DNA of 60,265 nt from an uncultured Oscillospiraceae bacterium. GTDB taxonomy: Bacteria; Bacillota; Clostridia; Oscillospirales; Oscillospiraceae. Below the pieces are notes generated by a model, which did not search any database, was not told the DNA's origin, and worked only from the letters and a program-made list of their open reading frames with translations. The translations under genes and the position numbers were made by a program. The DNA lies in contig CATABD010000005.1 of the NCBI GenBank assembly GCA_949494735.1, forward strand, positions 1 to 60,265, written 5' to 3'. Numbering within the stretch: the first letter of the stretch is position 1; every line of letters starts with the position of its first letter. Of the stretch, positions 19,158 to 35,353 are shown in pieces.

Positions 19158-19215
19158 CGTATCCCAGGAAATCCGCCCGTCCCTCCCCCCGGCAGCCCGC
19201 CGCGGAAATGCACCG

Positions 19216-20505
19216 TCAATTGCTTTTCAGCCACCCCAGCCGCACCGAACCGGCGGCGCCCCGGTTGGCAAACCGTATGGTCTGGCCGTCCTGCCCCCGC
19301 CGGAGCGCCAGCGACAGGCAAACCGGCGCGCCCGGCTTATCCTCAAGCGGCAGCGGGACAACCAGCTTTACCGTCCGCCCGCCATGCCATGCGCGCACGT
19401 CCGCGTCCAGGCGGAGCTCCTGTGCGCCCCCGCCTTCCCGCTCCATTACCAAAAAGCAGTCCGTATCCCTGCACACGCCGGAAAAGCCCTGGTTCTGAAT
19501 CACAACCCGCAGCGACCTGCCCGCCTTTTTTGCGTCCCGCACCACAAAGCGGGGCCCCAGGCGGCGTCCGATGTAGTCATATCCGTTGATTCCTTGCCAG
19601 CACCCCGGTATGTCCACCGTCTCCCGCTTCCAAAAATCCAGCTGCTTCTTGTGGTGGGCGCTGTTTAAATAGCAGGCGTGGAGCTTTTCCAGCTCCGCCG
19701 CCGCCCGCATGCAGCCCACCGGCGCGGGGGCGGCCACCGCTTCCCCGCCCACCGGCTTTCCCCCCATTGTCCGGCTCTGCCACTCCACTTCCTCGCCCCT
19801 TCCCCAGCGCCCCGCTTCGTCGGCCCGCTTCCCGCAGCGCGCGCCATAGGTCCCCAGATCCGTATCCGACCCGAACAGCCCGTCGTTAAAGAGGGTCAGC
19901 TTCTCTTCCAGCCCAGGCTCTCCCGCCAGCCGCGCCATCACGCCGCGCCACTGCGCCGGCGTTCTCACCGCCAGGAAGCAGCTTCCCCCCGCGGCGCGGT
20001 GCAGCGACAGTACCAGCCGCGCCAGGGCGGGCCCCGACAAGTGCCTTGAGCCGTGCATCTCCCCCCAGTTTCCCACAAAAACCCCCTGGAGGGTCAATAT
20101 ATACGGCGCGCAGGCGCGGATCAGCGGTCCCACCTGCTCCATATGCCTATGAATCAGCTCCTCGGATTCCGGCTCCCGCGCCAGCCCCTTCCCCTCCAGG
20201 TCATACGCGATCCGCAGGATAACCTGCTTCCCTGCGGCGTGGAAGCACGCTAAGATTTGCTCCATGTGCCGCAGTATTCCGGCCGTCAGCTCCTTTTCCC
20301 GGAAAAAGCCGATATGGAACTGCACCAGCGCCAGCCTCTCCCCGCCGCTTTCTTCCAGGCTGCCGGCCAGCGCCCGGACGTCCAGCGGCGGAAAAACCGT
20401 TCCGGCCGCCTCTTTCAATTCAAACGGATAGATGCGGTACCACCCGCAGTCCGGGTTTGCCAACGGCTCCGCGCTCTCCGCGTAATCTTCTTTATAAAAT
20501 CTCAT
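19216..20505 (-). CDS. DUF4874/DUF4832-type protein, predicted TIM-barrel glycoside-hydrolase-like
   Basis: 429 residues from ATG 20505 (GGTGGAAG directly upstream); an open frame to 20604 overlaps the neighbouring gene. Visible family features: NPDCGWYRIYPF at the start, LVQFHIGFF, a GKQVILRIAYD strand, TLQGVFVGNWGEMHGS with an acidic GNWGE that resembles a TIM-barrel catalytic strand, and a C-terminal Ig-like domain with RSLRVVIQNQGFSGV. There is no obvious signal peptide. In the Pel context it might stand in for the hydrolase part of PelA, which I do not see elsewhere, but that is inference. Confidence 0.75.
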   Translation of the reverse strand: MRFYKEDYAESAEPLANPDCGWYRIYPFELKEAAGTVFPPLDVRALAGSLEESGGERLALVQFHIGFFREKELTAGILRHMEQILACFHAAGKQVILRIAYDLEGKGLAREPESEELIHRHMEQVGPLIRACAPYILTLQGVFVGNWGEMHGSRHLSGPALARLVLSLHRAAGGSCFLAVRTPAQWRGVMARLAGEPGLEEKLTLFNDGLFGSDTDLGTYGARCGKRADEAGRWGRGEEVEWQSRTMGGKPVGGEAVAAPAPVGCMRAAAELEKLHACYLNSAHHKKQLDFWKRETVDIPGCWQGINGYDYIGRRLGPRFVVRDAKKAGRSLRVVIQNQGFSGVCRDTDCFLVMEREGGGAQELRLDADVRAWHGGRTVKLVVPLPLEDKPGAPVCLSLALRRGQDGQTIRFANRGAAGSVRLGWLKSN

Positions 20506-20535
20506 CTTCCACCCCCGGCGCCGCAGGCGCCGCCC

Positions 20536-20567
20536 CGCCGCTGCGTCAACGCGCCGCTGCGTCAACG
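20536..20567. repeat. 16-bp tandem duplication at a stop codon
   Basis: CGCCGCTGCGTCAACG occurs twice head to tail (20536-20551, 20552-20567). The second copy, as read on the minus strand, holds the TGA of the GT2 gene at 20562. Probably replication slippage. Confidence 0.85.
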
Positions 20568-21323
20568 CGCCGGCCGTGACCGTTTTTCCAGTTTTACCCG
20601 CCACACCACCGCCGGGATCTCAAAGCACATCCTGCACATATACCATGCTGTCCGAATCCCCCGGTGCATACTGCGCCCTTCCTTCCTGGCATGCATTACC
20701 GCCGGGATTTCCGCTACGCGGAATCCGAGAAGGAGCATTTGTATCACCATATTGGCGTCCGGGTATTTGTCGTCGAAATGTCCTTTCTGCCCATAGTAGG
20801 TGAAGGCCCTCCTGCTCAGGCCCTGCAGGCCTGTCGTCGGGTCCGCGATCCGCCGCTTCGTTATGGCGCGGATCAGAAAGCGAAACCAACCGAACGCCAC
20901 CCGCTTCAAAAAGATCACCGGAAATTCCGCGCTTCCCTCCATAAAACGGGAGGCCAGCACGATATCGGGATGCTCGCCGCCGTCCCCCTTCTCCCGCAGC
21001 CGTTGAAAGACCGGCGGGATATTGCAGGCGTCATGCTGGCCGTCCCCGTCCATCTGGATCACATAGCGGTAGCCGTTGTCTATGGCGTACCGGTAGCCGA
21101 TCTGCAGGGAGGTCCCATAGCCCATCCGCTCCATATTGGTCAGCATATGTACCGGCCACTTCCGGATCTCCTGGGCCGAGGCGTCGCTTGAGGCGTCGTT
21201 GATTACCAGGATATCCGCCATATCCTGTATCCGCCGCAGCGCCATCTGCCCCAGAACGCTCCCAATATTTTCTTCCTCGTTGTGCACAGGTATCAGCACC
21301 AGCAATTCCTTTCGTTCCTCCAT
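20562..21323 (-). CDS. DPM1-like GT2 glycosyltransferase
   Basis: 253 residues. Motifs of the dolichyl/polyprenyl-phosphate sugar synthase group: LIPVHNEEENIG, INDASSDAS, IQMDGDGQHD (DxD), ASRFMEGS and DPTTGLQGLSRRA. It lacks C-terminal membrane spans. Such enzymes usually work with a small DUF2304 membrane protein, and the very next gene downstream in the run carries a DUF2304-like N-terminus, a consistent partnership. Likely makes a lipid-phosphate sugar for the Pel-linked pathway. Confidence 0.85.
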   Translation of the reverse strand: MEERKELLVLIPVHNEEENIGSVLGQMALRRIQDMADILVINDASSDASAQEIRKWPVHMLTNMERMGYGTSLQIGYRYAIDNGYRYVIQMDGDGQHDACNIPPVFQRLREKGDGGEHPDIVLASRFMEGSAEFPVIFLKRVAFGWFRFLIRAITKRRIADPTTGLQGLSRRAFTYYGQKGHFDDKYPDANMVIQMLLLGFRVAEIPAVMHARKEGRSMHRGIRTAWYMCRMCFEIPAVVWRVKLEKRSRPAR

Positions 21324-21338
21324 AATCCCGCGCCGGTT

Positions 21339-22859
21339 TTATCCTTTCTGCCCCCACAGTTCTTTCCATGAATCCCTGTGGCAGATGCCACAGGGATTCA
21401 TGGAGCCCGCGCGGGCTCCCAACTCCCGTCTCAATTTCCCGTCCCCCGCAAGCCGCTCGATGCAGTCCGCCAGCGCACGCGGGTCAAACGGGCACAGCAG
21501 GCCGTCCCATCCGTCCACAATTTCATCCCGGTTGCCGGCGCAGTCCGAAACAATCGCGGCGCAGCCCAGCGCCAGGGCCTCCTGGAGGGCGATGCTCCTT
21601 CCCTCAAAGCGGGTCGCGTGCACATAAATATCCGCCTGCGCGTAGTAGGGGTAGGGGTTTTCCACCGCCCCCAGCAGGACAAAATCCTCCCCGAGCCCCA
21701 GCCTTGCCCGCTTCCGTTCCAGGGCCTTGCGCTCCTCGCCCTCGCCCAGCACGTACCAGCGGGCCGCAACCCCCCTCCTTTTCAAGAGGTCCATTGCCTC
21801 CAGCGCCATATCGTACCCCTTTTGATAGGTAAGCCGCCCCACGCTCAGCAGCCGTTTGCCCTGGTAGCCGTCCGAAAACCCGGGGCCCTGCCCGGCCCGC
21901 TCCCGGGCCCCGGCCAGGTCGATCATATTCGGGAAAACCTTCAGCCGGGGGGCATGCTCCGGGTAAAGCGCCTCAAAGCTCCGTTTCACCTCTTCTGAAA
22001 CGGCAAAAATCGCCGAGAACGCTTCCCAGCAATTCTGATCCATCTCCCGGGTATATCCGGCGCTCCCATAATCCACATGGACCAGCGCCGCCTTCCGTTC
22101 CGCCCTGACATAGTCCGCCACATAATAGGCTGCGCCCCCCTCCATCCAGGCCACCGCCATGTCAAAGCCCGCCGGGAATCGCGAGGCCCCCTCGGCCATC
22201 GTCCGCCAGAGCAGCTTGTCCGGCTGAATCCGCCCCGTTCGGCGCATCGCCGCCAGCGCGCGGGCCATATACCCCGCCTTACGGCACAGCCCCCCATTTT
22301 TTACGAAGGCCTTGAGCACGCCGCCAACGATCCTCCGCCGTCCCCTCCGGGACAGGACGGACATCGTGCTGGGATGGCGGTTCAGCACAGTTACGTAATC
22401 CGGGACCTCTCCAAACAGCTCCCCCTGGCCGATCAGCGCGTAAAGGAACACCTGGTAACCGTCGTCGTGAACGCCCCTGAGCACCTGCATCAGCAGGGTT
22501 TCCGCCCCCGCCCTTCCCAGGGTATTCACCACAAACAGCAGGCTTTTCTTGCCGCCCATCCGCAGGGTCCGCTCCATACGGCGCTCCCGCCGCCGTTCCC
22601 ACGCGGCCGACAGTTCCATGCTGCCCCAAAGTCCCAGGCAGGCCAGAAAACTTCCGCAAACCAGAACCATCCACGCCGTTTCCGCCTTCAGCCCGCTGAG
22701 CAGCCCCCTTACCGGCGGCAGGGCTTCCGCCAGGACAAGCAGCGCCCCGATCCCGCCCCACAGGGCGCAGAGGTCGGCATCCAGCCGTCCTCCGGCCCGG
22801 AGCCGCACGCCGGCCGCTATCAGAGCTATTCCAATGGACGGCATCACTGCAAACACCAT
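21339..22859 (-). CDS. DUF2304-like membrane domain fused to a GT4 glycosyltransferase
   Basis: 506 residues. Residues 1-95 have three hydrophobic segments in the order and spacing of DUF2304 proteins. From about 100 a GT-B/GT4 enzyme follows: FVVNTLGRAGAETLLMQVL at its start, LVHVDYGSAGYT, FAVSEEVKRS, LLSVGRLTYQKGYDMALEA, VLGEGEER, and the donor-binding ATRFEGRSIALQEALALG with the E-x7-E pattern. DUF2304 is normally a free-standing protein next to DPM1-like enzymes, so this is an unusual fusion. The last 20 codons lie in a long DNA hairpin (21365-21404) and may be a later addition. Confidence 0.8.
   Translation of the reverse strand: MVFAVMPSIGIALIAAGVRLRAGGRLDADLCALWGGIGALLVLAEALPPVRGLLSGLKAETAWMVLVCGSFLACLGLWGSMELSAAWERRRERRMERTLRMGGKKSLLFVVNTLGRAGAETLLMQVLRGVHDDGYQVFLYALIGQGELFGEVPDYVTVLNRHPSTMSVLSRRGRRRIVGGVLKAFVKNGGLCRKAGYMARALAAMRRTGRIQPDKLLWRTMAEGASRFPAGFDMAVAWMEGGAAYYVADYVRAERKAALVHVDYGSAGYTREMDQNCWEAFSAIFAVSEEVKRSFEALYPEHAPRLKVFPNMIDLAGARERAGQGPGFSDGYQGKRLLSVGRLTYQKGYDMALEAMDLLKRRGVAARWYVLGEGEERKALERKRARLGLGEDFVLLGAVENPYPYYAQADIYVHATRFEGRSIALQEALALGCAAIVSDCAGNRDEIVDGWDGLLCPFDPRALADCIERLAGDGKLRRELGARAGSMNPCGICHRDSWKELWGQKG
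21365..21419. repeat. 18-bp-arm hairpin plus adjoining 18-bp palindrome inside a coding end
   Basis: Arms 21365-21382 and 21387-21404 are perfect inverse complements around a 4-nt AGAT loop. The overlapping stretch 21402-21419 is a second perfect palindrome (core GCCCGCGCGGGC). Both are within the 3' end of the DUF2304-GT4 gene, encoding its C-terminal residues. It resembles a REP/miniature palindromic insertion, or an RNA processing or attenuation site between this gene and the GT2 gene downstream. Confidence 0.85.
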
Positions 22860-22899
22860 GCGACCCGCTTCCCTTTCCCGATCTGCACGGGCGGCCCTT

Positions 22900-23811
22900 T
22901 CACGGCCATCTCCCGCCTCCGGCCAGGCACAACCGCCAGAGCGCCCTCACCGCCTGATCCCACTTCCCCGTGCTCCGCGCCAAGTCCAGCCGCCTGCGCA
23001 GCTTCCATTGCAGCAGCCGTTTTTCCGACGGTTTGTCCTGAATGGCGCATATGGCGGCGATGTCATCGACCAGCCGTTCAAACCCCTCATACCGTTCCGC
23101 CCTCTCCCGCTCCGACAAGGCCCGCCTGGAGCTGCTCCCCTCCCGCACCGCCACCTCATAAAGCTCCCGCTGGACGGTGGGGCATTTGTAGCGGTACAAA
23201 AACGGGAGCAGCATCTGGAAGTTTTGCCCGACATCGTATTCCGGGATCCTTTTTTCGGGATAGATTTCAAAAAAGCGCTGCGATTTCAGCATGTAACAGC
23301 CGCAGCACACAAAGGTTTTCCCCTCCAGCACATCCCAGAACAGCTCCTCCTTTGCCAGCTCCCCCCGCCGTTCCTGCGCCTTCGCCGGCAGGCCGGTTTT
23401 ATCGTCAAAATAGGAGGGCAGGGACCGGACGCAGCTGTAAGCGGGGTTTTCCAAAAGGAACCTCACCCTCGCCTCTATGGACTCCGGGGCCAGCCTGTCG
23501 TCGCCGTCCGGCCAGACCAGGTATTCCCCCCGTACAAGGGGCAGGCCCCGGTTCAGCGCCGCCGAGGCGTTTTTGTGCGGCGCCCGTATAATCTCATACC
23601 GGTATCCCTTCCGGGCAAACTGCTCCCGGTAGCGCTCCGCGGCCAAAACCGTGCGGTCCTCCGACCCATCGTCCACCAGGATCATCTCCACACGGGGATA
23701 CGTCTGGTCCAAAACGGACTGAAGCAGCCTGGACACGTATTTTTCCCCGTTAAACACCGGGGTGACTACAGATACCAGGCCTTTCCCGTATATCTGCGGC
23801 TCGTTTCCCAT
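22900..23811 (-). CDS. GT2 glycosyltransferase
   Basis: 303 residues from ATG 23811; the open frame begins at 23943 inside the upstream gene. Motifs: VSVVTPVFNGEKYVSRLL, VDDGSEDRT, NASAALNRGLPLVRGEYLVWPDGDD (DxD as DGDD), and a Cys-rich FVCCGCYML that replaces the usual acceptor loop. The ribosome site is weak: a G-rich run lies about 13 bp upstream. Cytoplasmic sugar transferase of the extended pel run. Confidence 0.8.
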   Translation of the reverse strand: MGNEPQIYGKGLVSVVTPVFNGEKYVSRLLQSVLDQTYPRVEMILVDDGSEDRTVLAAERYREQFARKGYRYEIIRAPHKNASAALNRGLPLVRGEYLVWPDGDDRLAPESIEARVRFLLENPAYSCVRSLPSYFDDKTGLPAKAQERRGELAKEELFWDVLEGKTFVCCGCYMLKSQRFFEIYPEKRIPEYDVGQNFQMLLPFLYRYKCPTVQRELYEVAVREGSSSRRALSERERAERYEGFERLVDDIAAICAIQDKPSEKRLLQWKLRRRLDLARSTGKWDQAVRALWRLCLAGGGRWP

Positions 23812-23860
23812 ATCAGCTGCAAATCCCCCTCCTCCCCGCGCCGTCCTTGGCGGCAGGGGC

Positions 23861-26074
23861 CTACCGCTCCCCCGCCAGGGCCAGGTTGCAGGGATTTTCC
23901 AGGTTCTGCTCCAAATGGAAGCAGATAAAGCTCTCGTCCTCATAATAGACTTCCATCTGGTCCGGGTATGCCTCCATCAGGCGCACGCACTGTTCATACG
24001 CCCTGGATTCCAGCACCTCCCGGTTTTCCAGCCTCGTATATTTCAGCCAGCTGTCCGTCTCCGTAATCTCCCGCCCGGCTTTGCCGTGGGATATCTCCGA
24101 CGCGATCACATGCGGCGCCTGGCTGACCCGCCAGGAGAGCACCGTCTCATACTCGCTGCGGCTGGCCTCGGGATACTTCTCCTCCCCCAGCCAGGCGGGG
24201 CCCTGGGCGAAATAAAGCTGGGCATAGTAGAGCGGCTTTTTCTCCACATAAAAGAAAATATCGTCCAGCCAGAGGTAGTAATCCTCTTGCTCCACATCCG
24301 CCAAAAAGTTCAGCAATTCTATATGCAGGCCCTTTTCAATCATCTGGTACAGCTCATCGGTGGTTGATACGATCCCGTAGGTATGGGGCCGGAAGTTTTC
24401 CATAATCGTGCGGGTCAAGGCCACGGCCTGGGGATAGCGGGACAGCTCGTAGTACAAAAAGCCGTGATAATTCCCGGACAGGCGCACCACGGCGTAGATC
24501 CCCACCGCCGCCAGGACGGCCGCCTTTCGCAGCGCCTTCCCGCCATAGCGCCCCTCGGCCAGCGCCCCCGCGACGTCCAGCGGAACCAGCGCCGACGCCA
24601 GGGTCAGCGGATGTCCGATGGCGCCGAAGCGGCCCTCCGCGATAATCTGCGGCAGGCCCATATACGGCATGGCATAGGTCGCCACGTATATCACGGACAT
24701 CAGAACCATCGGGATATATCCATACCCCGCCCCCTGCGCCCATTCGGCCCCCCGGATTTTCCCGGCCAGGCAAAGCGCCAGGACGGCGCAGCTCAGCCCC
24801 AGGAGCAGCGCCCCCCGGCCCGCCCCATAGAGCTTCGCGTAGCCGTTTTGGTAAATGCCCCCCCGGCCGGCTTCCCGCGCCGTTTCCGTCCCCTGGCCCG
24901 GCTCCGCCGCCCCGTTCGCGGCCTCCAGCCGCTCCTGGTTTTCCCTCGCGCTATCCCCGCTCAGGGTGCTCAGCGCCCAGCCAATGGAATCCTGGAACGG
25001 AATGCCCGAGGCCAGCGCCCACGCCATGGGGGCCGCCGCGATCAACAGGCTGCACAGCGCCGCGGCGGCCAGCGGCAGCAGGCGGCTGGGGCAAAAGACC
25101 TTCCGAACCGCGCACAGCGCCACCGGGACGCACACAAGGAAGGCCATAATGGCCGTATAATAGTGGGTAGCCAGCATCGCCGCCAGGGCAAGCATAAATA
25201 CAGTCAGGTTTTCGTTTTTCCAGCAGGCCCGGGCGCCCCTGCCCTCAGGCGCCTCAGGCGTCCCCTTTATGTACCGCATGAGGAACAGGGCGCACAGGAA
25301 CACATACGGCAAGCCAAACTCCATGGGAAGCGTGTACTGCAGCCTGGACATGGGCGTAATCATCTCCGCCCCCCTCACATCCAGGGTCAGGAACAGGAGC
25401 AGGGCCAGGGCCGGCGTATACCGCCAGTGGAATATTTCCCGGAGCAGGCAGCCGGCGCACGCCAGGAACACCACCATGTGGACGCACTGGAGAAACCGCA
25501 GGCCGCTGAACACCGAAATTCCGAACAGGGCCTTCAGGCAGTAGATAAAGCAGTGCATGGCCTCCGGGTAAATGCCGCCGCTGTACACTTCCCCCTGCAT
25601 AAGCCCATAGATCCAGGAGTGGTGTACGTACAAATCCCCAAACCCATAGCAGGAGGCCTGAAACGCCCCGTAGGTAAAATATACCGCGCCAAACAGCAGC
25701 GTGGCCGCCCACAGCTCCTTATATACGGCGTCCCCCCTCCCCAGGGATTCCAGCACGCGGCACGGGAACCGCCCCGCCCTCTCCAGCAGGCCCTGCCTGC
25801 GGGTCCAGACCAGGCGGGCGGCGGATGCCACGAATATCCCCGCCAGAATCAACGCCGTCAGAGGCATACTTAAAATGTGAAGAAGTCCCAAACCCAGCAC
25901 CAGCCCGTTCAGGCACACCGGAACCACCGCAACGCAGAAACCAAAGCGGTACACCGGCGGTTTCTGGCGCAGGTGCCCATAAAACACAACGTGGGGCCAC
26001 GCCAGCATCAAAAAAGCATATCCCAACAGGACTTTCCCATATTCACCTGCCTCATAGAGGACGTCGATGGTCAT
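23861..26074 (-). CDS. Large multi-span membrane protein, GT-C-like, of the pel run
   Basis: 737 residues with about 12-14 hydrophobic segments in the first 560 residues and a soluble C-terminal part of about 180 residues. Between spans is a long outer loop with YGFGDLYVHHSWIYGLMQGEVYSGGIYPEAMH, which recalls the acidic first loop of GT-C glycosyltransferases. No specific family is certain. Its ATG overlaps the pelG stop (ATGA), so it is co-translated with the exporter. A role in polymer modification or ligation at the outer face is inference. Confidence 0.7.
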   Translation of the reverse strand: MTIDVLYEAGEYGKVLLGYAFLMLAWPHVVFYGHLRQKPPVYRFGFCVAVVPVCLNGLVLGLGLLHILSMPLTALILAGIFVASAARLVWTRRQGLLERAGRFPCRVLESLGRGDAVYKELWAATLLFGAVYFTYGAFQASCYGFGDLYVHHSWIYGLMQGEVYSGGIYPEAMHCFIYCLKALFGISVFSGLRFLQCVHMVVFLACAGCLLREIFHWRYTPALALLLFLTLDVRGAEMITPMSRLQYTLPMEFGLPYVFLCALFLMRYIKGTPEAPEGRGARACWKNENLTVFMLALAAMLATHYYTAIMAFLVCVPVALCAVRKVFCPSRLLPLAAAALCSLLIAAAPMAWALASGIPFQDSIGWALSTLSGDSARENQERLEAANGAAEPGQGTETAREAGRGGIYQNGYAKLYGAGRGALLLGLSCAVLALCLAGKIRGAEWAQGAGYGYIPMVLMSVIYVATYAMPYMGLPQIIAEGRFGAIGHPLTLASALVPLDVAGALAEGRYGGKALRKAAVLAAVGIYAVVRLSGNYHGFLYYELSRYPQAVALTRTIMENFRPHTYGIVSTTDELYQMIEKGLHIELLNFLADVEQEDYYLWLDDIFFYVEKKPLYYAQLYFAQGPAWLGEEKYPEASRSEYETVLSWRVSQAPHVIASEISHGKAGREITETDSWLKYTRLENREVLESRAYEQCVRLMEAYPDQMEVYYEDESFICFHLEQNLENPCNLALAGER

Positions 26075-27555
26075 GCGCCGTCTCCTGTTCCTTCCCCTTC
26101 GGACATCATCGCGGTTTTCCTGTCATAGACCTTGCCGTCCGGCTTTTCCCGGTCCTCCCGCCGCAGCATGGTGCCCTCGCAGAAGGTATATGTGCTCAGG
26201 TTCCGCTCAATCCACCGCAGCCGGGCATAGGCCAGCGTCCAGCCGGCAAACGCCCCCAGCACAATGCCCAGCCCATACCAGGTCTCCGACAGCCCCATGG
26301 AGAGGACGCTTCCGAGAAATGTCACGGCGCAAAATCCCGCGGCGGTAAGGACCGCCCCGGCAAAATCGTTGAAGTAATACAGGAAGTGCATGGCGGCATA
26401 CATGATAAACAGGATGAAGAACCCCGCAGCCAGGCAGGGGTAAATCCGCATGATGCTTCCCGCAAAGCCCAGCTGGGGCAGGATCACCACGCATAACAGG
26501 TACACCGTCACCGTTATGATGAACTGGAGCCGCACCAGATTGAGCAGCTCCTCCGACAGCTGCCGGAACATCCGGGACCCGGCCGCGTCGATGTCCCCCC
26601 ACTTGCCGCCGATCACCGCCTCCGAATAGGCCTTATATTTCTTGTTGAAGTTCATCTCTACGCTGGAGATAAAGATAATCAGGGTGGAAATATTCGTGAA
26701 TATGGCAATATAGGTGGCCATATCGTAGTTCTGGTTGCAGATAAAGCTCTTCGCCACCACCGACCTGGTCTCATGGGACCAAAACACAAAATTGTGGATG
26801 TAAAGCCCCAGCACATAGAAGAAATTTGAAGCCATCAGCTTCCACCATTTTTTGCAGTAAACAAACACCAGCTTATACTGCCCGCTGTTTTCCGGGAAAT
26901 AATTTTTGAGCGCCGTGTATTCCAGAATTCCGATCAGCAAAAAACCAACGGCCAGAGCCGAGAGCAGGCTGTAGGTCACCTCCACATGCAGCCCGTAACG
27001 CAAGAGCAGGGCACACAGGCAGGCCGCCGCCATGCCGATCAGGAAAAACAGGGATATCCTTTCATAGTCCTTGCAAACCGAGAGATAAACCATGGAATAC
27101 AGCACAAAAATCATAGCCGTATAGCCGCAATAGCCGAGAAACACGAAACCGGCCTCCACGCCGCCGGCAAAATGCACCCACAGGGAGAACACGGCCCCCG
27201 GGATGCAGCCGAACAGCAGGGTCAGCAGCAGCCCAACCTGATAGCAGGGCATCACATCCCCATACCGCTCTTCAAAAATGGCGTCCTGTACAAAGCGGGA
27301 GAGCACCGGGCTGAACAGCAGGTGGACCGCCAGCAGGGAAAAGATGAAGATGTACAATATCACACTGGAAAACAGATCCCTCGTCAGATAGCTCTCGTCA
27401 GCGAAGCCCAGCGCGTTTTCCATCACCCAAACCGACGCCACGATAAAAAGCACGGGCGCTACGGTGATGATAACGCTGTAGCCGATTCCCAAGACGTTTG
27501 CCGCAATCGACTTTTTTTCGTAGATGCGTTTTAATTTAACGCCAACTCCCGCCAT
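26071..27555 (-). CDS. pelG: PelG-like exopolysaccharide inner-membrane transporter
   Basis: 494 residues, about 12 membrane spans. The N-terminus MAGVGVKLKRIYEKKSIAAN followed by a Gly/Val/Ile-rich first span is typical of PelG, a MOP/MATE-superfamily member that exports the Pel polymer with PelD, PelE and PelF. The hydrophilic, basic C-terminal tail is also usual. The start overlaps the 3' end of pelF by 25 bp and a GGAGGGGGAG ribosome site precedes it. Position directly after pelF matches known Pel operons. Confidence 0.88.
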   Translation of the reverse strand: MAGVGVKLKRIYEKKSIAANVLGIGYSVIITVAPVLFIVASVWVMENALGFADESYLTRDLFSSVILYIFIFSLLAVHLLFSPVLSRFVQDAIFEERYGDVMPCYQVGLLLTLLFGCIPGAVFSLWVHFAGGVEAGFVFLGYCGYTAMIFVLYSMVYLSVCKDYERISLFFLIGMAAACLCALLLRYGLHVEVTYSLLSALAVGFLLIGILEYTALKNYFPENSGQYKLVFVYCKKWWKLMASNFFYVLGLYIHNFVFWSHETRSVVAKSFICNQNYDMATYIAIFTNISTLIIFISSVEMNFNKKYKAYSEAVIGGKWGDIDAAGSRMFRQLSEELLNLVRLQFIITVTVYLLCVVILPQLGFAGSIMRIYPCLAAGFFILFIMYAAMHFLYYFNDFAGAVLTAAGFCAVTFLGSVLSMGLSETWYGLGIVLGAFAGWTLAYARLRWIERNLSTYTFCEGTMLRREDREKPDGKVYDRKTAMMSEGEGTGDGA

Positions 27556-28997
27556 GCCTGCTCCCCCTCCTTTTGTTTCTGCTCCGGGCCGCTTTGCCCA
27601 AGCTCCTGGTACAGCGCCCGGTAAGCATCGTACATGCTCTCCGCCCGGTACAGGGAAGTGACCCGTCTGTAGCCGTTTTCGCCCATGCGGGCCCGCTCGG
27701 CCCCGTCGTCCGCCAAGCGCAGCAGCGCTGCGGAAATCCCGGCCACATCCATGACGGGGACCACAATTCCAGCCTCGCCAAAGCCGTCGGATTCCCCAAG
27801 GATCAACCCCCTGCAGTCCCCCACATCCGTGGCGACCACAGGCTTGCCGGCGGCAAAGCTCTCCATAACGGCCAGCGGCTGCCCCTCGCTGATGCTGGTC
27901 AGGAGCATTACGTCCATCCTTCCATAGTACTCCCGCACATCAACCTTGCCGGTGAATTCAATGTCCGGAACACTCATGACCCGAACCAGCTCAAAGCACT
28001 CCTTCGCGTAGTCCTCGTCCTCCTCCCAGGGCCCCATGACGTACAGGCGCAGGGCGGGGTTGCGCTCCTTGGCAAAGCGGAAGGCCTGGATCATGGTCAT
28101 GATATCCTTTACCGGCGCGACGCGCACAACCGCCCCCACATTAACCCATCCGGCGTCCTCCTCCCCCTTCCCCGGCAGGGCTTCAAACCGCCCCACGTCT
28201 ATTCCGTTTGGTATCACCCTTGTCTTTTCCTCCGGGCAGCCCTCCTCAATCTGAAGCCCCCTGGCGTGTTCGAAGAGGCTTACCACCACGTCCGCCTTTT
28301 CATAGGCAAGGCCCGACATCTTCCGGAACTGCTCAATCCATATGTTTTTAAAAATGCCCTGCACCCACTTGGCCTTAATCAGCTCCTCTTCCCGCTCCCG
28401 GGTATAAATACCGTGCTCGGAAACCAGCATCCTGCCGCCGTGGAGGTACTTGCCTATGCTCCCCAGCACACCTGCGTAGCCGGTGCAGACGCAGTGGTAC
28501 ACATCCGCCCGGGGAAGCCCCATTTGCAGCGTAAAGAACATGGGCAGGTAGATGGAGCGCATCATCCACAGGAAATCGGTGAAAACGAGCTGGCTGTAGT
28601 AGCTCTGGTAATATTCCGTGATAATCTTCAAAAAGTCCGCACCCATCAGGATGTCATTGACCGAGGATATCTTTTCCTGGAACAGCCGGAAAATCACTTC
28701 CCACTCCACTTCCCGGTTTAGCACCAGGCTGCGCAGCGCCTGGTACTCCTTTTTGTCCAGCCGGATCCTCCCGTGCTTTCTGCTCCTCCAGTCCGCGTCG
28801 TTCAAGTAAACCTCATGCACCTCCCACACATTCCCGGGAAGCTCATACTGGAACTTTCCCCGCTGGGAGCGCTCCGCCAGAATGCTGACGATTACAAACT
28901 CATGCTCCGGAAAGGACCGTATCAGCTGGTGCGTCCAGGTGGATACGCCCCCGACAACATATGGGTAGCTGCCTTCCGCAACTATACATATTTTCAT
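27531..28997 (-). CDS. pelF: PelF-like GT4 glycosyltransferase (Pel polymerase)
   Basis: 488 residues from ATG 28997, with AGGAAG 7 bp upstream; the frame is open to 29126 without a start signal. The N-terminal KICIVAEGSYPYVVGGVSTWTHQLI is the PelF signature (DUF3492 region), followed by SEHGIYTREREEELI, RVIPNGIDVGRF, VNVGAVVRVAPVKDIMTMI and the GT4 donor site TSISEGQPLAVMESFAAGKPVV. PelF is a cytosolic UDP-sugar glycosyltransferase that polymerises amino-sugar residues of Pel. All catalytic landmarks are intact. Confidence 0.92.
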   Translation of the reverse strand: MKICIVAEGSYPYVVGGVSTWTHQLIRSFPEHEFVIVSILAERSQRGKFQYELPGNVWEVHEVYLNDADWRSRKHGRIRLDKKEYQALRSLVLNREVEWEVIFRLFQEKISSVNDILMGADFLKIITEYYQSYYSQLVFTDFLWMMRSIYLPMFFTLQMGLPRADVYHCVCTGYAGVLGSIGKYLHGGRMLVSEHGIYTREREEELIKAKWVQGIFKNIWIEQFRKMSGLAYEKADVVVSLFEHARGLQIEEGCPEEKTRVIPNGIDVGRFEALPGKGEEDAGWVNVGAVVRVAPVKDIMTMIQAFRFAKERNPALRLYVMGPWEEDEDYAKECFELVRVMSVPDIEFTGKVDVREYYGRMDVMLLTSISEGQPLAVMESFAAGKPVVATDVGDCRGLILGESDGFGEAGIVVPVMDVAGISAALLRLADDGAERARMGENGYRRVTSLYRAESMYDAYRALYQELGQSGPEQKQKEGEQAWRELALN

Positions 28998-29038
28998 CTT
29001 GTCACTTCCTTTTTCCGCCGTTGCCGCAAGGCCCTTTG

Positions 29039-30853
29039 TTACCCCCGCGTACTGTTTTGCAGCGTGATTACCACGTTTTCCTCCGTCGCCTCGATGAGGT
29101 ACGCGCCATCCTCCAGCAAGGTCCACTGGCCGCCCTCTACCGCGCGGATCCGTTTCCCCTCCCCCCTCAGGACAAACCAGGCCGGGGAACCCGGATTTTC
29201 AAGCTCCAGGTAAACTGTGTTCCCATCAATCCGCTTGCCGTAATCCAGCGCGAGGAATGCGCGGATCCGCTCGTCGCTTTCCGACACGGTGGTCCCTTCA
29301 AAATTCTCATAGCCTTTAAAGTAATTTTGCAGGTTCCAACCCAAATTAGAGCTCATCTCATTCAGCGCGTCGCCGCTGTCCGGGTACGCAATCCACTCCA
29401 TGTCCACCATGACGCTGGTATAGCCCAAAGCCGTCTCCACACATTTCGCCAGGAAATCCTGGCCGTAGGTATAGTGGACGCCGTCGGCCAGCAGCGCCTG
29501 CCTGGTCACATTCTCATTCAAATACCCAAAGACATCCAGCTCCCCGCCGTATTGGGAGACGACCGTCCGCACCGACTCCAGCAGCCTGTCCTGCAATTCC
29601 ACCTCCAGGGTATGTCCCTGCGTGCTGTAGAAGGAGGTAAAGCGGTAATCCGGCAGGGTCCCCTCCATAAACCACCGGTCCTCCAGCAGCTTCTGCTCCA
29701 GGGGCGTATCGGAAATGCGGCCGCCCGACAGCCCCACCTCCGCGCTCTCCTCGTTCAGCCGCTTCATGTAATATAAAAGCTGCTCCTGCTCCGGGAGGTT
29801 TTCATCCTCGTAATCATACTGCGGCGCCAGCATACAGGTCAGGCCCAGCGCGTTCTGCCTGTACGCGGCGATGAACACAGGCCATACCCTGTCGCGGAAC
29901 AGCCGGTCAAGGCCCTGGCCGTAAAGGCCCTGGATTTCCGCCTCGTTCTCCCGGGCCAGCCCGGGGTAGTTGACGGCCACCAGGTTCTGGGCGTTGACCA
30001 CCGGATAGATCTCGCAATCCTTTCCATCCGCCCAGATGGCGGACAAAAGCCCCAGGCCGCAGGCCCCCTCCATATAATCGCCGTTTACCACATAGGTGTG
30101 CGGTTCTTTTGCCGGGGTCCGCCAGATCACGGCGGGCAGCTCCTCCGCCTCAAGGCTTTCATCCTCCAGGATCCCCCGCATATAGGCTTGCGCATCCTCC
30201 GCGAGCACATACCAGGGAAAGGTCAGCTCCATGTCCTGGCGCCGTTCGTTTTCCTCCTCGTCTATGCTCCAGTACTCCGCCCCGCCGCCCAGCAGGAATC
30301 CATCCTCCAGGCGAAGGCCCTCCACGGTGGTCTCTGCCGCCCGCACCTGGGAAATCCCAAAAAGCCCGCGCAGTCCCGCGCTTTTTCTGATAAGCTCCGC
30401 CTCCGGGAGGCCGCAGAAAACCAGCCTGCCGCCCTTGCCGGCGCCTGCCTCCAGGCAGCTCCACGCCGCCTCGTCCCCCCAGTCAATGTCCTCGGAATGG
30501 ACGCTCACCGTTCTCTCCGGGTATGCGGCCAGGGCCCCCGCGCTCTCCCGGTAGTCCTCCAGCGTCTCGCAGCCCATGAAGTTCTGCTTTGTGTAGACAG
30601 CCCACTGCCGCGTAACCTCAAAGGCGGACGCGTCCCTGCTCCCGATATACACGACCATCCCCCGGGAGCTGTCCGGGCTGTCCTCGTCCAGCGCATACAT
30701 ATCCGACTCCTTGGGCAGCTCCTCCAGATTCCGGACAAAGCTGTTTTCCTCATAGTGGTTCCAGCGCTCCAGCATCACGTTGGTCATCTGGAACATCAGC
30801 AGCACAACGCCCATCACTATGGTGATTGAAAAATAGTTCCACCGTGATATCAT
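29039..30853 (-). CDS. DUF2194-type membrane-anchored outer protein of the pel locus (PelA-like position)
   Basis: 604 residues with one N-terminal membrane anchor (about 7-28) and a large extracytoplasmic part. It sits where Gram-positive Pel loci place DUF2194/PelA-like proteins, which are proposed polysaccharide deacetylases. Candidate acidic/His landmarks are DVFGYLNENVTRQ, HYTYGQDFL and VMVDMEWIAYPDSGD, and a C-terminal beta domain resembles a carbohydrate-binding module. A canonical NodB HxxxH motif is not seen, so catalytic activity is uncertain. ATGA overlap with the pelE-like gene shows tight coupling. Confidence 0.72.
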   Translation of the reverse strand: MISRWNYFSITIVMGVVLLMFQMTNVMLERWNHYEENSFVRNLEELPKESDMYALDEDSPDSSRGMVVYIGSRDASAFEVTRQWAVYTKQNFMGCETLEDYRESAGALAAYPERTVSVHSEDIDWGDEAAWSCLEAGAGKGGRLVFCGLPEAELIRKSAGLRGLFGISQVRAAETTVEGLRLEDGFLLGGGAEYWSIDEEENERRQDMELTFPWYVLAEDAQAYMRGILEDESLEAEELPAVIWRTPAKEPHTYVVNGDYMEGACGLGLLSAIWADGKDCEIYPVVNAQNLVAVNYPGLARENEAEIQGLYGQGLDRLFRDRVWPVFIAAYRQNALGLTCMLAPQYDYEDENLPEQEQLLYYMKRLNEESAEVGLSGGRISDTPLEQKLLEDRWFMEGTLPDYRFTSFYSTQGHTLEVELQDRLLESVRTVVSQYGGELDVFGYLNENVTRQALLADGVHYTYGQDFLAKCVETALGYTSVMVDMEWIAYPDSGDALNEMSSNLGWNLQNYFKGYENFEGTTVSESDERIRAFLALDYGKRIDGNTVYLELENPGSPAWFVLRGEGKRIRAVEGGQWTLLEDGAYLIEATEENVVITLQNSTRG

Positions 30854-31770
30854 GACACCCTCCCACGGCTGAAGATCCGGATGATCTCCAGCGTCTCGCT
30901 GTTTACCACAACGTTCGATTTCTTCAGCTCATCCATGGTCTGGAAAAACTCGTCCCTCCGCATCAGGGTGAAATACAGCTTCAGCCTGCAGGTATAGGCG
31001 GGGAGCTGGTCCGGGTACTGCCGCGCCAGGCGGCCGCACCATTTTTCGGCCGGCTCCGTATCCCGGACCTCCAGCAGCCGCAGGCAGACGCTCTCATAGC
31101 GTCCGGGCGTGAGCCTGGACGCGTTTTTCTGATAAAGCTCCTCCGCGGCGCGCTCCATGATATGGACAAAGCGGTTCTGCTCCAGGTCGGAGAAAACCTG
31201 CTGGCGCAGGACCCCGTCCATATAATCCAGCAGCTCCTCCTCCGCCCCGGTTTCCTCCGGGGGCTCCTCCTCCAGCTTTCGCAGCATTTTGCTGACGGTG
31301 ATGCGGAAATCGTTCAAAATGCTGCTCAGGGCGGACGCGGCGTAGTGCGCGGTCTCGGAGTCCTTCGCGCCAAGCGCCGTGGAAACCGCCGCCAGCGATT
31401 CGCTGATGTCCCCCTTAATCACGTTCATCATCGCCAGGCGCTGGTTTTTATGGTCGTCCACCAGGACGGCCTCATCCAGCGGGAGGATGTTTTTCTCCCG
31501 GTTCTCATCCGCTTTCAGCTGCGTTTTAACCCGCTCCTTGCCAAAGACCACATCCTTCAAATCAATCTCCATCCCCGGCGCCGCTTTGCACAGCAGCCAT
31601 GACAGGAGATAAAACGCAGCCCCGACAACCGGGCAGAGCATCATGACCCCAAATCTGGCCCAGCACTGCTTCGCGCCCCTCGCCTTGCCCCAGATCAGGC
31701 AGCACCCAGCGCCCACAGCATTTATAACCAGCAGTATTAAGACGATAAGCTCTCCTTTTGCCAGTCCCAT
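30850..31770 (-). CDS. pelE: PelE-like membrane protein with helical repeats
   Basis: 306 residues. Two N-terminal membrane spans (about 7-27 and 40-60) are followed by a cytoplasmic, helix-rich region with TPR-like pairs. The stretch DDHKNQRLAMMNVIKGDISESLAAVSTALGAKDSETAHYAASAL reads as consecutive short helices, with the ETAHYAASAL element recognisable in PelE proteins. PelE bridges PelD and PelF at the membrane. It is located between pelD and the DUF2194 gene, with a gap of 2 bp and an overlap of 4 bp respectively. Confidence 0.8.
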   Translation of the reverse strand: MGLAKGELIVLILLVINAVGAGCCLIWGKARGAKQCWARFGVMMLCPVVGAAFYLLSWLLCKAAPGMEIDLKDVVFGKERVKTQLKADENREKNILPLDEAVLVDDHKNQRLAMMNVIKGDISESLAAVSTALGAKDSETAHYAASALSSILNDFRITVSKMLRKLEEEPPEETGAEEELLDYMDGVLRQQVFSDLEQNRFVHIMERAAEELYQKNASRLTPGRYESVCLRLLEVRDTEPAEKWCGRLARQYPDQLPAYTCRLKLYFTLMRRDEFFQTMDELKKSNVVVNSETLEIIRIFSRGRVS

Positions 31771-31772: not shown

Positions 31773-33947
31773 CTACCGCACCTTCCTCAGACAGGTCTCA
31801 TAGCCGATCCCGCGGATACGCCTTCTCACGTCTTCGGATTTTTCCTCATTTGTATTGGCCAGCAGCACATACAGCTTCCCATCGTCCAGCATCCCAATGT
31901 AATCCGTCTGCCGCACGGCCTTCCCTAGGTCGCGGCCCGCTTTCGCGTAAGTTTCCTCGCCGGCCCGCACCTCCAGCAGCACGCACTCCGTAAGCCCCCG
32001 GTTCCCGGCGTCCATAAACGCATTCACCAGCGCGCCGAACGCCTCCGGCTGCAAGGTGTTTGTCCCCTCCAGGTAGCGCTGTTCCTTCAGCGCCTCCAGA
32101 TAGCGCCTGGCCCGGACGACCGAGTTCTGAATCAGCGCGCCCGCAATCATAAGCCGGTTCGCCTCGGCCAGGTTCATGCGCTGCCAGGGGATCCCCCACA
32201 CCATGAATATGAACTGCATTTCGTCCTGCACAAAGACGGCGCTGGCCATCATGGGAAGCGTTTTGTCCATGTTGTGGTTGATAAAGACCCTGCGCTCCTT
32301 CAGCGTCTCATACAGCTCCCCCGAGCCGGCGTAGGCGTAAGAGTCCCCCAGCTGCCTGGCCTGGGCGGATGTGGCGGAGAAAAGCCGCGCGTATCCCTGG
32401 TTGGCTACAAGGTAGACGGCCACCTCCCGGCTGTCCATCAGCTCCTCCAAAACCTCGGCCGCGTAGAACAGGACCTCCTCCGGCGCGTACTTTTCCAGCC
32501 GGGAGGTCAGCTCGTAAATCCGGCCGAGGCTCTCCCGCTGGTTTACCAGCTCCGTCTCAAAGCCCTGCTTCATCCTCACGTTGCTGTCGTTAATCTCCTC
32601 GATGTTCTTCACGCGCTTTTGCAGGAACAGGATCTCCTCCCTCTGTTCCTCCCGGATGTGGTGCATACGGTCCCTCATGATGCCCACCGCCATACCCACG
32701 ATAAAGAGCTGGGCTGTCCACACGTAGGTATTGTAATCCAGCAGCACCTCAAACCCGCTGCGTCCCGAGGTCTGCTGGAAGAAGTACCCCAGCACCGCCA
32801 GCAGGGCCGACAAAATCGCCTGCTGCTGCCCGTGCATCAGCGCGAACAGCAGCACATACAGCAGGAAGAAGTCCAGCCTTCCAAAATACCGGCTGCCCGC
32901 CACCTGGCTGCTCAAAAAGCCGAAAAGCACACAGCAGATCACGTTTTCCACAAAGGGGAATATGCTTCTAACCACCGCGCCCAGGCTCTTTTTATTGCCG
33001 CCGCCCGGCTCCCCGGGATCTATGTAGGAGCTTTTTCCGCGTTCCATAAAGCGGATAATCTCCCTTATTTCCTCCCGGTAGCCCGTGACGGCGCTGAGCC
33101 CGAACTCCCCGGTAAACCTGCCGGCGTCCAGCACCCGCCGCCTGTCCCGGCCGGCCTCCTGCTCCAGCACCTCAACGGGGACGCCCGCTTCCCCGGCGAT
33201 GATCCGCGCCAGCTCCAGCTCGCTCAGTTCCTCCATGGAAGACAGGTGGTATTCGCTGTACGCATGGCTCCCGGCGGTCATCACGGCATAGATAAACGCC
33301 GCCGCGTCCTTTACGTGCAGCATGGAAAAGATGTCCTTGCCGGAGGCGGAAATGGTCCCTGTCTTTAACGCCTCCAGGCACTTGGTGAAGCAGATATCCC
33401 CTTCCCTCTGCCCCTTTCGCGGCATACCGTAAAGGTGGTCAAGCCTCAGTACCACAATGTCCTTTCCCTGGGTTTTCCGGCAGTTTTCGCAGATTCCCTC
33501 CCCCTGCATAACGGCCATCGCCCGGTAACCGTCCGGCGCAGGCGCCGCGTCCTCCCCCAGGCCGCCGGGGCAGGCGTTCCCGCTGCTCCCGTAAATTTCA
33601 TCAGAGGAGAGGTAGATAAAACGGCCGTTGGCGGACGAGGCGTACACAGAAATTATATTCGCGATGGACGCCGTATAGCGGGACAGCTCCCGGCTTCCCT
33701 TTTCCTCCCATGCGAAGCTGGTATCCTGGGCGCCCATAAACAGCACGGCATCCGGGTTGATCCCCTGCATGACGTCCTTTATGCTCTCATCCTGATAGGA
33801 AAAACTGTATTTTTCAAAAGCGCGCCTATAGGCGGAGGAATCCTTCCCCCCCTCCATAAGCACATAGGATTTGTGGCCGTTTTTATTCACGGTATCGACC
33901 ATGGTATCCATGAGCTGGCTGGGTCCGCCCACCAACAGTATATTCAT
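31773..33947 (-). CDS. pelD: SDR-PelD fusion: c-di-GMP receptor of the Pel system
   Basis: 724 residues. The ATG at 33947 is chosen because AGGAG lies 9 bp upstream; the ATG at 33956 abuts it. Residues 1 to about 300 are an extended SDR (nucleotide-sugar epimerase-like) with LSSDEIYG and DHLYGMP but a degenerate Rossmann loop (GGPSQLM) and Y141xxxA145 in place of YxxxK, so it is probably not an active epimerase. Four membrane spans (about 330-440), a coiled coil, a GAF domain (about 490-620) and a GGDEF-like domain follow. The latter has R679-QT-D682, an RxxD I-site, and exactly five residues later DDGKL instead of GGDEF: no cyclase activity expected, c-di-GMP binding kept. First gene of the operon. 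Confidence 0.88.
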   Translation of the reverse strand: MNILLVGGPSQLMDTMVDTVNKNGHKSYVLMEGGKDSSAYRRAFEKYSFSYQDESIKDVMQGINPDAVLFMGAQDTSFAWEEKGSRELSRYTASIANIISVYASSANGRFIYLSSDEIYGSSGNACPGGLGEDAAPAPDGYRAMAVMQGEGICENCRKTQGKDIVVLRLDHLYGMPRKGQREGDICFTKCLEALKTGTISASGKDIFSMLHVKDAAAFIYAVMTAGSHAYSEYHLSSMEELSELELARIIAGEAGVPVEVLEQEAGRDRRRVLDAGRFTGEFGLSAVTGYREEIREIIRFMERGKSSYIDPGEPGGGNKKSLGAVVRSIFPFVENVICCVLFGFLSSQVAGSRYFGRLDFFLLYVLLFALMHGQQQAILSALLAVLGYFFQQTSGRSGFEVLLDYNTYVWTAQLFIVGMAVGIMRDRMHHIREEQREEILFLQKRVKNIEEINDSNVRMKQGFETELVNQRESLGRIYELTSRLEKYAPEEVLFYAAEVLEELMDSREVAVYLVANQGYARLFSATSAQARQLGDSYAYAGSGELYETLKERRVFINHNMDKTLPMMASAVFVQDEMQFIFMVWGIPWQRMNLAEANRLMIAGALIQNSVVRARRYLEALKEQRYLEGTNTLQPEAFGALVNAFMDAGNRGLTECVLLEVRAGEETYAKAGRDLGKAVRQTDYIGMLDDGKLYVLLANTNEEKSEDVRRRIRGIGYETCLRKVR

Positions 33948-34184
33948 TTTATTCATCTCCTACATTTTTATTGGCATTCTCAACCACGGCCCAAGCGGAA
34001 CCGCAAAAAGCCGGAACGAGATTCCCCCTGTGGCAGAAAAGCGGGATCGCTCCCTTCAAAAAATAGAAAACGGCTGGCATCCCTGTCCCAGACGGCCCCC
34101 TCCTTTCCAGACACTCCCCTATGTATTTCCCAGCAAGCCCCGCAGGGGCTCTTCCCGGTCCGCCCGAATGCGGCAGATATACAC
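33948..34184 (-). promoter_or_regulatory. pel operon 5' leader outside the invertible segment
   Basis: 237 bp between the left inverted repeat and pelD. I find no good leftward sigma-A promoter in it, so transcription should depend on the switch. It contains a stable hairpin AGCCCC-gca-GGGGCT (34136-34150) and G-rich stretches on the RNA-like strand. No c-di-GMP riboswitch signature was recognised. Confidence 0.5.
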
Positions 34185-34206
34185 GACGGAATAAACAGTA
34201 TGGGAC
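34185..34206 (+). repeat. Left inverted repeat of the pel switch
   Basis: Starts GACGGAATAAAC and ends ATGGGAC; perfect 22-bp inverse complement of 34483-34504. Likely recombination site. Confidence 0.95.
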
Positions 34207-34276
34207 AGCCTTCTTAAAAACCGGGGAATTTTTATTCTCCAAATGCGGAAATAAAATCAAAAAAAGCACGGAAAAC

Positions 34277-34314
34277 AGGACCGCAAAAAATCTGCTTTTG
34301 CAGTCCTTATTTTT
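34277..34314 (+). terminator. Terminator inside the invertible segment, upstream of its promoter
   Basis: Stem AGGACCGCAAAA (34277-34288) with TTTTGCAGTCCT (34296-34307), one mismatch, then TTATTTTT. On the other strand the stem is followed by GTTTTCC and later T7, so it may work both ways. Being upstream of the promoter in either orientation, it would insulate the switch from read-through. Confidence 0.65.
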
Positions 34315-34359
34315 CATGCTTTTTGCACCAAACAGGAAAAATATGGGGGATAAAGGTTC

Positions 34360-34388
34360 TTGCATTTGCTTACGGCCTATGCTATAAT
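34360..34388 (+). promoter_or_regulatory. Sigma-A promoter inside the inverton
   Basis: TTGCAT (34360-34365), 17-bp spacer, perfect TATAAT (34383-34388). In this orientation it fires toward the right repeat and then antisense through the recombinase gene. No comparable leftward promoter is present in the segment or in the pel leader. Confidence 0.85.
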
Positions 34389-34428
34389 CCTAATCGACAT
34401 TGGAGTGCGCTTATATTTTGGACTGGAA

Positions 34429-34443
34429 TGTTTATTCCGTCTA
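34429..34443 (+). repeat. Third partial copy of the switch repeat
   Basis: TGTTTATTCCGTCTA is repeated directly at 34492-34506, where it overlaps the right inverted repeat; spacing 63 bp, six helical turns. Possibly an accessory recombinase-binding site or a remnant of an earlier boundary. Confidence 0.85.
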
Positions 34444-34482
34444 TCTGGTTTTGGCTGGAAATTGCCCGGTTTTCGAGGGTCC

Positions 34483-34504
34483 GTCCCATACTGTTTATTC
34501 CGTC
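34483..34504 (-). repeat. Right inverted repeat of the pel switch
   Basis: Begins GTCCCATACTG and ends TATTCCGTC; perfect inverse complement of 34185-34206. Ends 3 bp from the recombinase stop codon. Confidence 0.95.
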
Positions 34505-34507: not shown

Positions 34508-35353
34508 CTACATAAGCAATTGCAGCCGTTCCAGATCCCGCGTGTGCTCCAGGCCGGTGGAGCGCAGGTAGATCCGGGTGGTCTCAATGGAACTGTGGCC
34601 CAGCACGTCCGCCAGCTTTACAATGTCCCGGCACACCCGGTAAAAAACCGTGGCAAACAGATGGCGCAGGTTGTGGGGAAACACCTTGGACGCTTCCACC
34701 CCCGCCGCCGCGCACAGGCCCTTCATCTCCCTCCAGATTTGCTTTCTGGACAGGCTGGCGCCGTCTTTGGTGAGAAAAATCTCGCCAGAGGCGATTTTTT
34801 GTTTTTCAGCGTATTTGTTCAGTTTGCGGCACAGCTTCCCCGGCAGCAGAATCACCCGCACCTTCCCCTTCAGGCTGATAACCGCCTTTCCGGCCCGGGC
34901 AGCCTCCACGGTGAGGCAGCGCACCTCGCCCACCCGGATCCCCGTGGAGCAGATGGCCTCCATCAGCAGCCCCAGCCTGGCCTTTCCCTGGCTGTGGGCA
35001 GTTTTCAGCAGGCGCAGGTATTCTTCCTTCGTCAGGGACCGCTCCTGCTCCCGGAACACCCGCCGCTGGATCCGGAGCAGCTTCACGCGGCAGTCGTCCC
35101 ATTTCATAAACCGAAGGAAATTATTGACCGCGCACAGCTTGGCGTTCACCGTGGCCGGGGTCAGGTTCTTTGACATCAGTTCCCCCTTCCAGCCGATTAC
35201 CGCCTGCTTCGTCACGCCGCCCCCCCTGAGCCAGCAAGAGAATTCCCGCACATTGTGCAGGTACTTTTCGATGGTAGCCGCACTGCGCTCGTCCTCCATA
35301 AGATGGCCCCTGTAGTCTTTCAGATGCGCGCCCGCTATCCTGCGTCCGTTCAT
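34508..35353 (-). CDS. Tyrosine site-specific recombinase (likely invertase of the pel switch)
   Basis: 281 residues, XerC/D-like. An N-terminal SAM-like core-binding domain (about 10-95) and a catalytic domain carry the full set of active residues: R in STGIRVGEVR, K in the SLKGKVRVI hairpin, H-x-x-R in FPHNLRH, H in LGHSSIETT and the nucleophile Y in TRIYLRST. There are no other mobile-element genes nearby, so it is more likely a dedicated invertase than a prophage integrase. The ATG at 35353 has a poor ribosome site; an internal ATG at 35299 has AGGGG about 8 bp upstream and is a possible alternative. Confidence 0.9.
   Translation of the reverse strand: MNGRRIAGAHLKDYRGHLMEDERSAATIEKYLHNVREFSCWLRGGGVTKQAVIGWKGELMSKNLTPATVNAKLCAVNNFLRFMKWDDCRVKLLRIQRRVFREQERSLTKEEYLRLLKTAHSQGKARLGLLMEAICSTGIRVGEVRCLTVEAARAGKAVISLKGKVRVILLPGKLCRKLNKYAEKQKIASGEIFLTKDGASLSRKQIWREMKGLCAAAGVEASKVFPHNLRHLFATVFYRVCRDIVKLADVLGHSSIETTRIYLRSTGLEHTRDLERLQLLM

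Follow-up and report, generated by a model that had tools for sequence, protein, structure and literature searches.

Locus organization upstream of the Pel cluster

The window analysed here, a stretch of 60,265 nucleotides from an uncultured Oscillospiraceae bacterium, carries a Pel exopolysaccharide cluster of 13 contiguous minus-strand genes, which runs from 33956 to 16147 (17.8 kb) and whose far end meets convergent plus-strand glycosyltransferase genes. Between the first gene, pelD, and a tyrosine recombinase gene on the same strand lies a short segment bounded by inverted repeats. The features are the following:

34508..35353, minus strand: tyrosine recombinase, 281 aa (PF00589 and PF02899), its gene ending 3 bp from arm A
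34483..34504: arm A, 22-bp inverted repeat on the recombinase side, 100% complementary to arm B
34429-34446: internal third site A', a direct repeat relative to arm A (17 of 18 bases)
34360..34388, plus strand: predicted promoter TTGCAT-17-TATAAT, its -10 preceded by TG; as sequenced, it is directed away from pelD
34277-34307: hairpin with T-rich tails on both strands (z -3.2 on the plus strand, -4.8 on the minus strand)
34185..34206: arm B, 22-bp inverted repeat on the pelD side
33957..34184, minus strand: non-invertible leader before pelD, 228 bp
31773..33956, minus strand: pelD, with an N-terminal SDR (epimerase-like) domain and an RQTD motif
30850..31770, minus strand: pelE-like gene, assigned from position and conservation, without a Pfam match
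29039..30853, minus strand: DUF2194 gene, presumably in place of pelA-DA
27531..29126, minus strand: pelF (NF038011, 374.5 bits, cut-off 100)
26071..27555, minus strand: pelG (PF16933, 430.7 bits, cut-off 29)
16147..26074, minus strand: eight accessory genes

The identity of the Pel locus is given by pelF and pelG, both above their family cut-offs, and gene order and conservation fit pelD, pelE and a pelA-type deacetylase. The accessory genes encode a 737-aa protein without a Pfam match, three glycosyltransferases, DUF4832, pyruvyl transferase, FrhB-like and DUF1919 proteins, and several of them, together with the pelE-like and DUF2194 genes, are also found beside Pel in other genomes. In the C-terminal part of PelD, RQ(T/S)D is present in all four aligned sequences, with R682, Q683 and D685 invariant; the RxxD of the degenerate GGDEF domain is what we take to be the c-di-GMP site of PelD. 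When the PelD alignment was used for a profile search of the PDB, matches were confined to the SDR part. The window's PelD retains RQTD, and control by c-di-GMP need not be absent. SDR-PelD and DUF4832 are described for clostridial Pel loci in the relevant passages of PMC7112168, and the domain make-up of the SDR-PelD in the window matches the one given there for clostridial PelD. Near the contig start (1485-7182), a gene for a trypsin-like/FHA protein and a gene for a 1,043-aa protein kinase were observed.

The initial annotation had described an 18-kb Pel operon, which holds for the contiguity, common strand and length of the genes, with one single transcript being presumed. Such a 17.8-kb transcript is unproven because terminator-like matches inside the pel genes exceed expectation, 35 being observed against a shuffle mean of 17.6 (both strands).

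With 276 nt between them, the arms delimit a segment of 320 bp (34185-34504) with a GC content of 41%, compared to 64% for the contig. They form the sole 16-mer-seeded inverted pair spaced 30 to 4,000 bp in the whole window, and no further copy of the arm sequence with up to 3 mismatches is present in the 3.18-Mb assembly (84.9% complete). Their inverted-repeat score is 22; among 640 dinucleotide shuffles of regions upstream of Pel loci, none scored 16 or more and two reached 14. The previously claimed perfect 22-bp repeats, and the placement of the segment between the recombinase gene and pelD, are borne out by these coordinates. On the target strand, the order is recombinase, arm A, A', backward-facing promoter, hairpin, arm B, leader and pelD. 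The internal third site and the hairpin were missing from the first account of the locus; A' represents a possible additional crossover site, and the hairpin, matched on the minus strand by a terminator scan, is a predicted two-way terminator. Elsewhere in the window, a direct repeat of about 100 bp, with copies 142 bp apart, is located at 54760-55019.

The predicted promoter proved to be the top sigma-70-like site of the segment, with a simple weighted score of 12.9. This score was equalled by 6 of 1000 dinucleotide shuffles of the segment, and also by 23 of the 375 tiles of 320 bp across the window. Because its -35 fits the consensus in just three of six bases, the promoter is missing from a stricter scan. 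Its direction, away from pelD, is in accordance with the OFF state assigned to the assembly. The leader contains no sigma-70-like site above 5.3 toward pelD, so the statement that pel has no other usable promoter stands for sigma-70-like matches in the leader; inside the cluster, one weak minus-strand match is found at 29842-29813. Over the 19-kb stretch, promoter matches numbered 5, with 5.5 expected. A riboswitch in the leader was rejected, as no Rfam match at the gathering threshold was obtained for the window or for the Pel loci L098, L099 and L113. Another 23 Pel loci show no clear switch, and the top site in the 400 bp upstream of pelD has a score between 8.5 and 16.5 in these, with a pelD-facing site of at least 9.96 in 22 of them; with 400 bp scanned there against the 228-bp leader here, and no shuffle control, this comparison is a contrast and not a test.

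The recombinase family and inversion in its members

The initial description of a complete recombinase gene 3 bp from the repeat is supported by an intact frame and by the preservation of near-invariant residues. Among 88 relatives, R140, K164, H227, R230 and H253 are conserved at 1.00 and Y262 at 0.99, and these six are presumably the expected catalytic residues. Based on sequence, the adjacent recombinase likely acts on the arms. A relative (E 1e-40 or better) is present in 79 of 300 genomes of the window's family, its own included. The sequence cluster of the window's recombinase has 9 members, located on 4 contigs. A second recombinase of the window's own genome, 61% identical, is found at G000:C131:5985-6800; its gene breaks off where the contig stops, 2 bp beyond residue 277 of 281.

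The counts of repeats and promoters use matches that extend to residue 255 with an identity of at least 40%; where downstream stretches were identical, a single one was retained, so that L098 was merged into its twin L077. The 90 loci examined, window included, represent a part of all matches, and 75 of them were testable, having at least 400 bp after the recombinase stop. Inverted repeats directly past the stop were found in 62 of the 75 testable loci (58 with a score of at least 14), compared to 19 of 390 random places (7 with such a score); the remaining 13 loci are devoid of them. Two 7-bp half-sites 4 bp apart, ACRRAAT-4-ATTYYGT, give the best fit in 60 of 62 left arms, and at least 12 of 14 consensus matches are reached by 51 left and 53 right arms. 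Since the best of 20 shuffles also reaches 12 of 14 in 13 of 62 cases, this motif should be regarded as a consensus and no strict rule. The best promoter between the arms faces away from the target in 32 of the 62 segments, toward it in 14 and in an unclear direction in 16, and in 41 segments no more than 2 of 40 shuffles were equally good.

The scan of genes following these segments covered 47 of 58 first genes (11 longer than 1,100 aa were excluded) and one farther gene in L052, giving 48 genes. A DUF4379 (treble clef) gene follows the recombinase cassette in 10 of them (for example L050, L060, L061, L074 and L151), in L061 with a gene for a 3,893-aa fibronectin type III repeat protein after it. 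SLH proteins account for five of the 48 and a helicase-family match for one, and the segment L051:1017-1282 lies 8 bp before an 848-aa reading frame with a helicase-like start. At L046:3127-3999 and L068:12305-13645, the first gene past the segment shows weak similarity to phage integrase families, a hint that recombinases may occur there in pairs.

Segments of this recombinase family do invert, since two copies in one genome (L164 and L166 in G270) hold one segment both ways between collinear flanks. The recombinase side is collinear at 94.5% (910 bp) and the target side at 91.7% (720 bp), while the 188-bp segment between them is 97.3% identical in opposite orientation. The same pattern of inversion between collinear flanks occurs at 81% in two copies of genome G080 (L144 and L145). 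In genome G284, an 18-bp arm (17 of 18 bases alike) forms the end of two contigs, one with the recombinase and one with pelD, and no other copy of this arm with up to 2 mismatches is present in that assembly. Such ends are as expected if the reads held both orientations, other causes of the break being possible. In addition, for 14 of 81 minus-strand matches the recombinase 3' end is no more than 500 bp away from a contig start, compared to 2 of 68 for the 5' ends of plus-strand matches (p 0.004); within 120 bp the values are 7 of 81 and 1 of 68, with a p of only 0.054. Among plus-strand matches on contigs of known size, 7 of 40 end within 120 bp of the contig end. For the window's own species one orientation was seen, and both orientations are shown in homologous segments of relatives.

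Pel loci associated with probable invertible segments

PelG is uncommon in the window's family, being present in 6 of 300 genomes, its own included. A scan of a species-level genome collection with a PelF alignment (one genome per species, many of them metagenome bins) gave 42 loci; of the 37 in which pelD could be placed, 31 offered 400 bp or more of upstream sequence. Most of the 31 lack a switch. A same-strand recombinase of the window's recombinase family, inverted repeats and pelD follow each other in order in four of these 31 other Pel loci (L098 from genome G234, L099, L101 and L106). The broken arrangement in G284 (L111) is a further Pel locus, its contig ending at the arm. Counting the window, there are five Pel-linked segments; their best promoter is directed away from pelD in two, toward it in one (L099) and is unclear in direction in two. 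An internal third site is present in four of these five, compared to 6 of 62 segments overall, in a count that skips copies within 45 bp of the arms; doubled arms occur in a few other loci.

Not all arrangements of this kind have a single promoter. L101, and apparently also L135, have promoter-like sites facing out at both segment ends; therefore, inversion would be no clean on/off event there. L135:1-1080 is a scrambled scaffold of the same kind, with promoter-plus-site units in tandem and at both ends. Considered as proof of both orientations, it is ambiguous, as it contains an N and a recombinase fragment and has the same 103 bp at both segment ends. The 14-bp, AT-rich repeat of L096 was not supported as another switch, and in L112 an inverted repeat with a score of 18 lies upstream of Pel.

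A maximum-likelihood tree was built from 88 recombinases that start by residue 30, have at least 44% identity and are free of internal stops; its bootstrap was not fully settled (correlation 0.984, with 0.99 wanted). The recombinases of L101, G284, L099 and G234 form one clade (100/97), that of L106 falls into a remote clade, and the window's recombinase joins neither, which puts Pel-linked recombinases in three places of the tree. Supported branches force three changes of the Pel label, and none of 200 bootstrap trees has a single change. In principle, a single gain together with two losses would also account for three changes.

A second kind of likely invertible segment was found before pelD in Lachnospiraceae (L095:2951-5000, L113:3390-5009, L094:4349-4743 and L110:1-453). 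In Schaedlerella arabinosiphila DSM 106076 (L095), a 383-aa tyrosine recombinase with PF00589 and a different N-terminal domain is encoded upstream of pelD. Its gene, together with a promoter-like TTGAAA-17-TAATAT, is enclosed by sites resembling GTCGCAGAGTGTCCTACTCTGCGAC. In a Lachnospiraceae MAG (L113), this block is inverted (1,410 bp aligned, 74%) and the pelD flank is collinear. The promoter-like site scores 12.2 in both loci; it points toward pelD in L113 and in the other direction in L095. The MAG of L113 has another Pel locus (L094), where a 395-bp segment has the same type of site and an away-facing promoter but no recombinase; in L110, the end of the recombinase and a comparable site lie at the edge of a contig. 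At least two unrelated recombinase types are thus linked to inverted segments before Pel, the orientations in L095 and L113 being opposite. As a separate observation, a 59%-identical relative of the window's recombinase lies near pelD in S. arabinosiphila on the other strand (L095:2126-2953), with no repeats past its stop.

Promoter inversion as a proposed control layer for Pel

Pel is a widespread biofilm polymer, and its output is usually explained by c-di-GMP. With considerable confidence, we read the 320-bp promoter segment as a predicted ON/OFF switch of the 17.8-kb Pel cluster, likely flipped by the adjacent recombinase. The enzyme would pair arm B with arm A or with the internal site A', and either the A-B or the A'-B inversion would turn the promoter toward pelD, with a resulting leader of roughly 340 nt. 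Whichever way the segment lies, the hairpin would separate the recombinase gene from pel and block read-through. As a result, pel would be silent in the OFF state, with the promoter then directing antisense transcription of the recombinase gene, and no Pel would be produced by OFF cells at any level of c-di-GMP. In ON cells, polymer synthesis would remain subject to c-di-GMP through PelD, and inversion would thereby add an all-or-none transcriptional layer above it. The proposal of phase variation made at the outset gains comparative support from the repeats in 62 of 75 loci, from the L164/L166 pair and from the recurrence before pelD; for the window itself, flipping is predicted.

Several other explanations of the structure were considered. 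The segment may invert while a second promoter also drives pel, so that inversion would tune the amount of Pel or, through antisense transcription, the recombinase. The promoter-like sites at both ends in L101, the weak match inside the cluster and the limitation of the scan to sigma-70-like consensus sequences speak in favor of such an arrangement, yet the fixed leader holds nothing above 5.3 toward pelD, whereas 22 of 23 switch-less Pel loci have a pelD-facing site of at least 9.96 within 400 bp (a figure without shuffle control), and we consider it unlikely. Flipping mainly by another recombinase of the cell is distinctly improbable: the family has a common site consensus and a 61%-identical enzyme is encoded on G000:C131, but the gene of this enzyme runs off its contig, beyond which its own sites would lie, the arm sequence is unique to the window's locus, and an intact gene ends 3 bp from the arm.

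The switch could also be inert, once invertible and now fixed, its arms and recombinase no longer working together. The single orientation seen for the species would fit this, as would the second half of the arms, which deviates from the family consensus (ACGGAATAAACAGTATGG). However, drift would be expected to destroy arm identity, and the arms are perfect over 22 bp, with the recombinase frame intact and its near-invariant residues kept, making an inert switch very improbable. Finally, tyrosine recombinases integrate elements too, and dispersal of the family over 79 of 300 genomes could suggest that the repeats are a scar of integration or transposition, with no switch involved. This reading was rejected, and its probability is minimal: the repeats are inverted, 62 of 75 loci have them beyond the 3' end of the gene for the recombinase, and homologous segments face opposite ways although their flanks are collinear.

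Beyond this locus, Pel looks like a repeated target of promoter inversion in clostridia, because of its recurrence, the three tree places and the second recombinase type. With moderate confidence, we propose that Pel in gut clostridia has been repeatedly put under inversion control, through at least three captures by one dispersed family of cassettes made of a recombinase and a flip-promoter, and through another by an unrelated recombinase inside its own invertible segment, and that Pel is a bet-hedged, phase-variable trait.

An invertible promoter with a recombinase beside it is a known kind of switch. In the sections of PMC5903667 and PMC9286219 that concern Clostridioides difficile, switches are inverted-repeat segments upstream of surface or c-di-GMP genes, and those of cwpV, flgB and pdcB, with RecV, resemble the present one in clostridial tyrosine-recombinase inversion of a short intergenic segment. 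They differ in that RecV, as described there, serves several switches with targets other than Pel, whereas here the recombinase gene lies 3 bp from an arm and the target is Pel. Promoter inversion at polysaccharide loci is shared with the Mpi system of Bacteroides fragilis; according to the corresponding part of PMC5903667, however, the serine recombinase Mpi acts on thirteen or more regions, with capsules as the product, in contrast to the synthase-dependent Pel polymer. The hCom2 survey describes inverton groups 139 and 145, which belong to Firmicutes_A and have genes for tyrosine-type recombinases in their vicinity. Group 139 is mostly Firmicutes_A, and could be a candidate for the window's recombinase family; in the survey text on the two groups, Pel or Oscillospiraceae did not appear, one word match to "pel" aside (PMC11892184, relevant passages). 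The Gram-positive pelDEADAFG locus in Bacillus cereus shares PelD, PelF, PelG and the gene order, and the control given for it in the main text is c-di-GMP, where the terms "recombinase" and "phase vari" are absent (PMC7112168).

The initial annotation knew of no inverton on Pel, and correspondingly no report of Pel under inversion or phase variation was found among the papers listed from the open-licence literature. The novelty lies in Pel being the target, in the recurrence of this placement and in a second type of recombinase. If a promoter flips before the whole cluster, each population would contain Pel-plus and Pel-minus cells ahead of any signal. The presence of unrelated recombinases before the same genes would argue that heterogeneity in Pel is itself selected, and phage, immune recognition or mucus attachment may be the source of such selection. 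Among named strains, such arrangements are present in Schaedlerella arabinosiphila DSM 106076, with the second kind of segment, and in Pseudoflavonifractor sp. 524-17, with the first.
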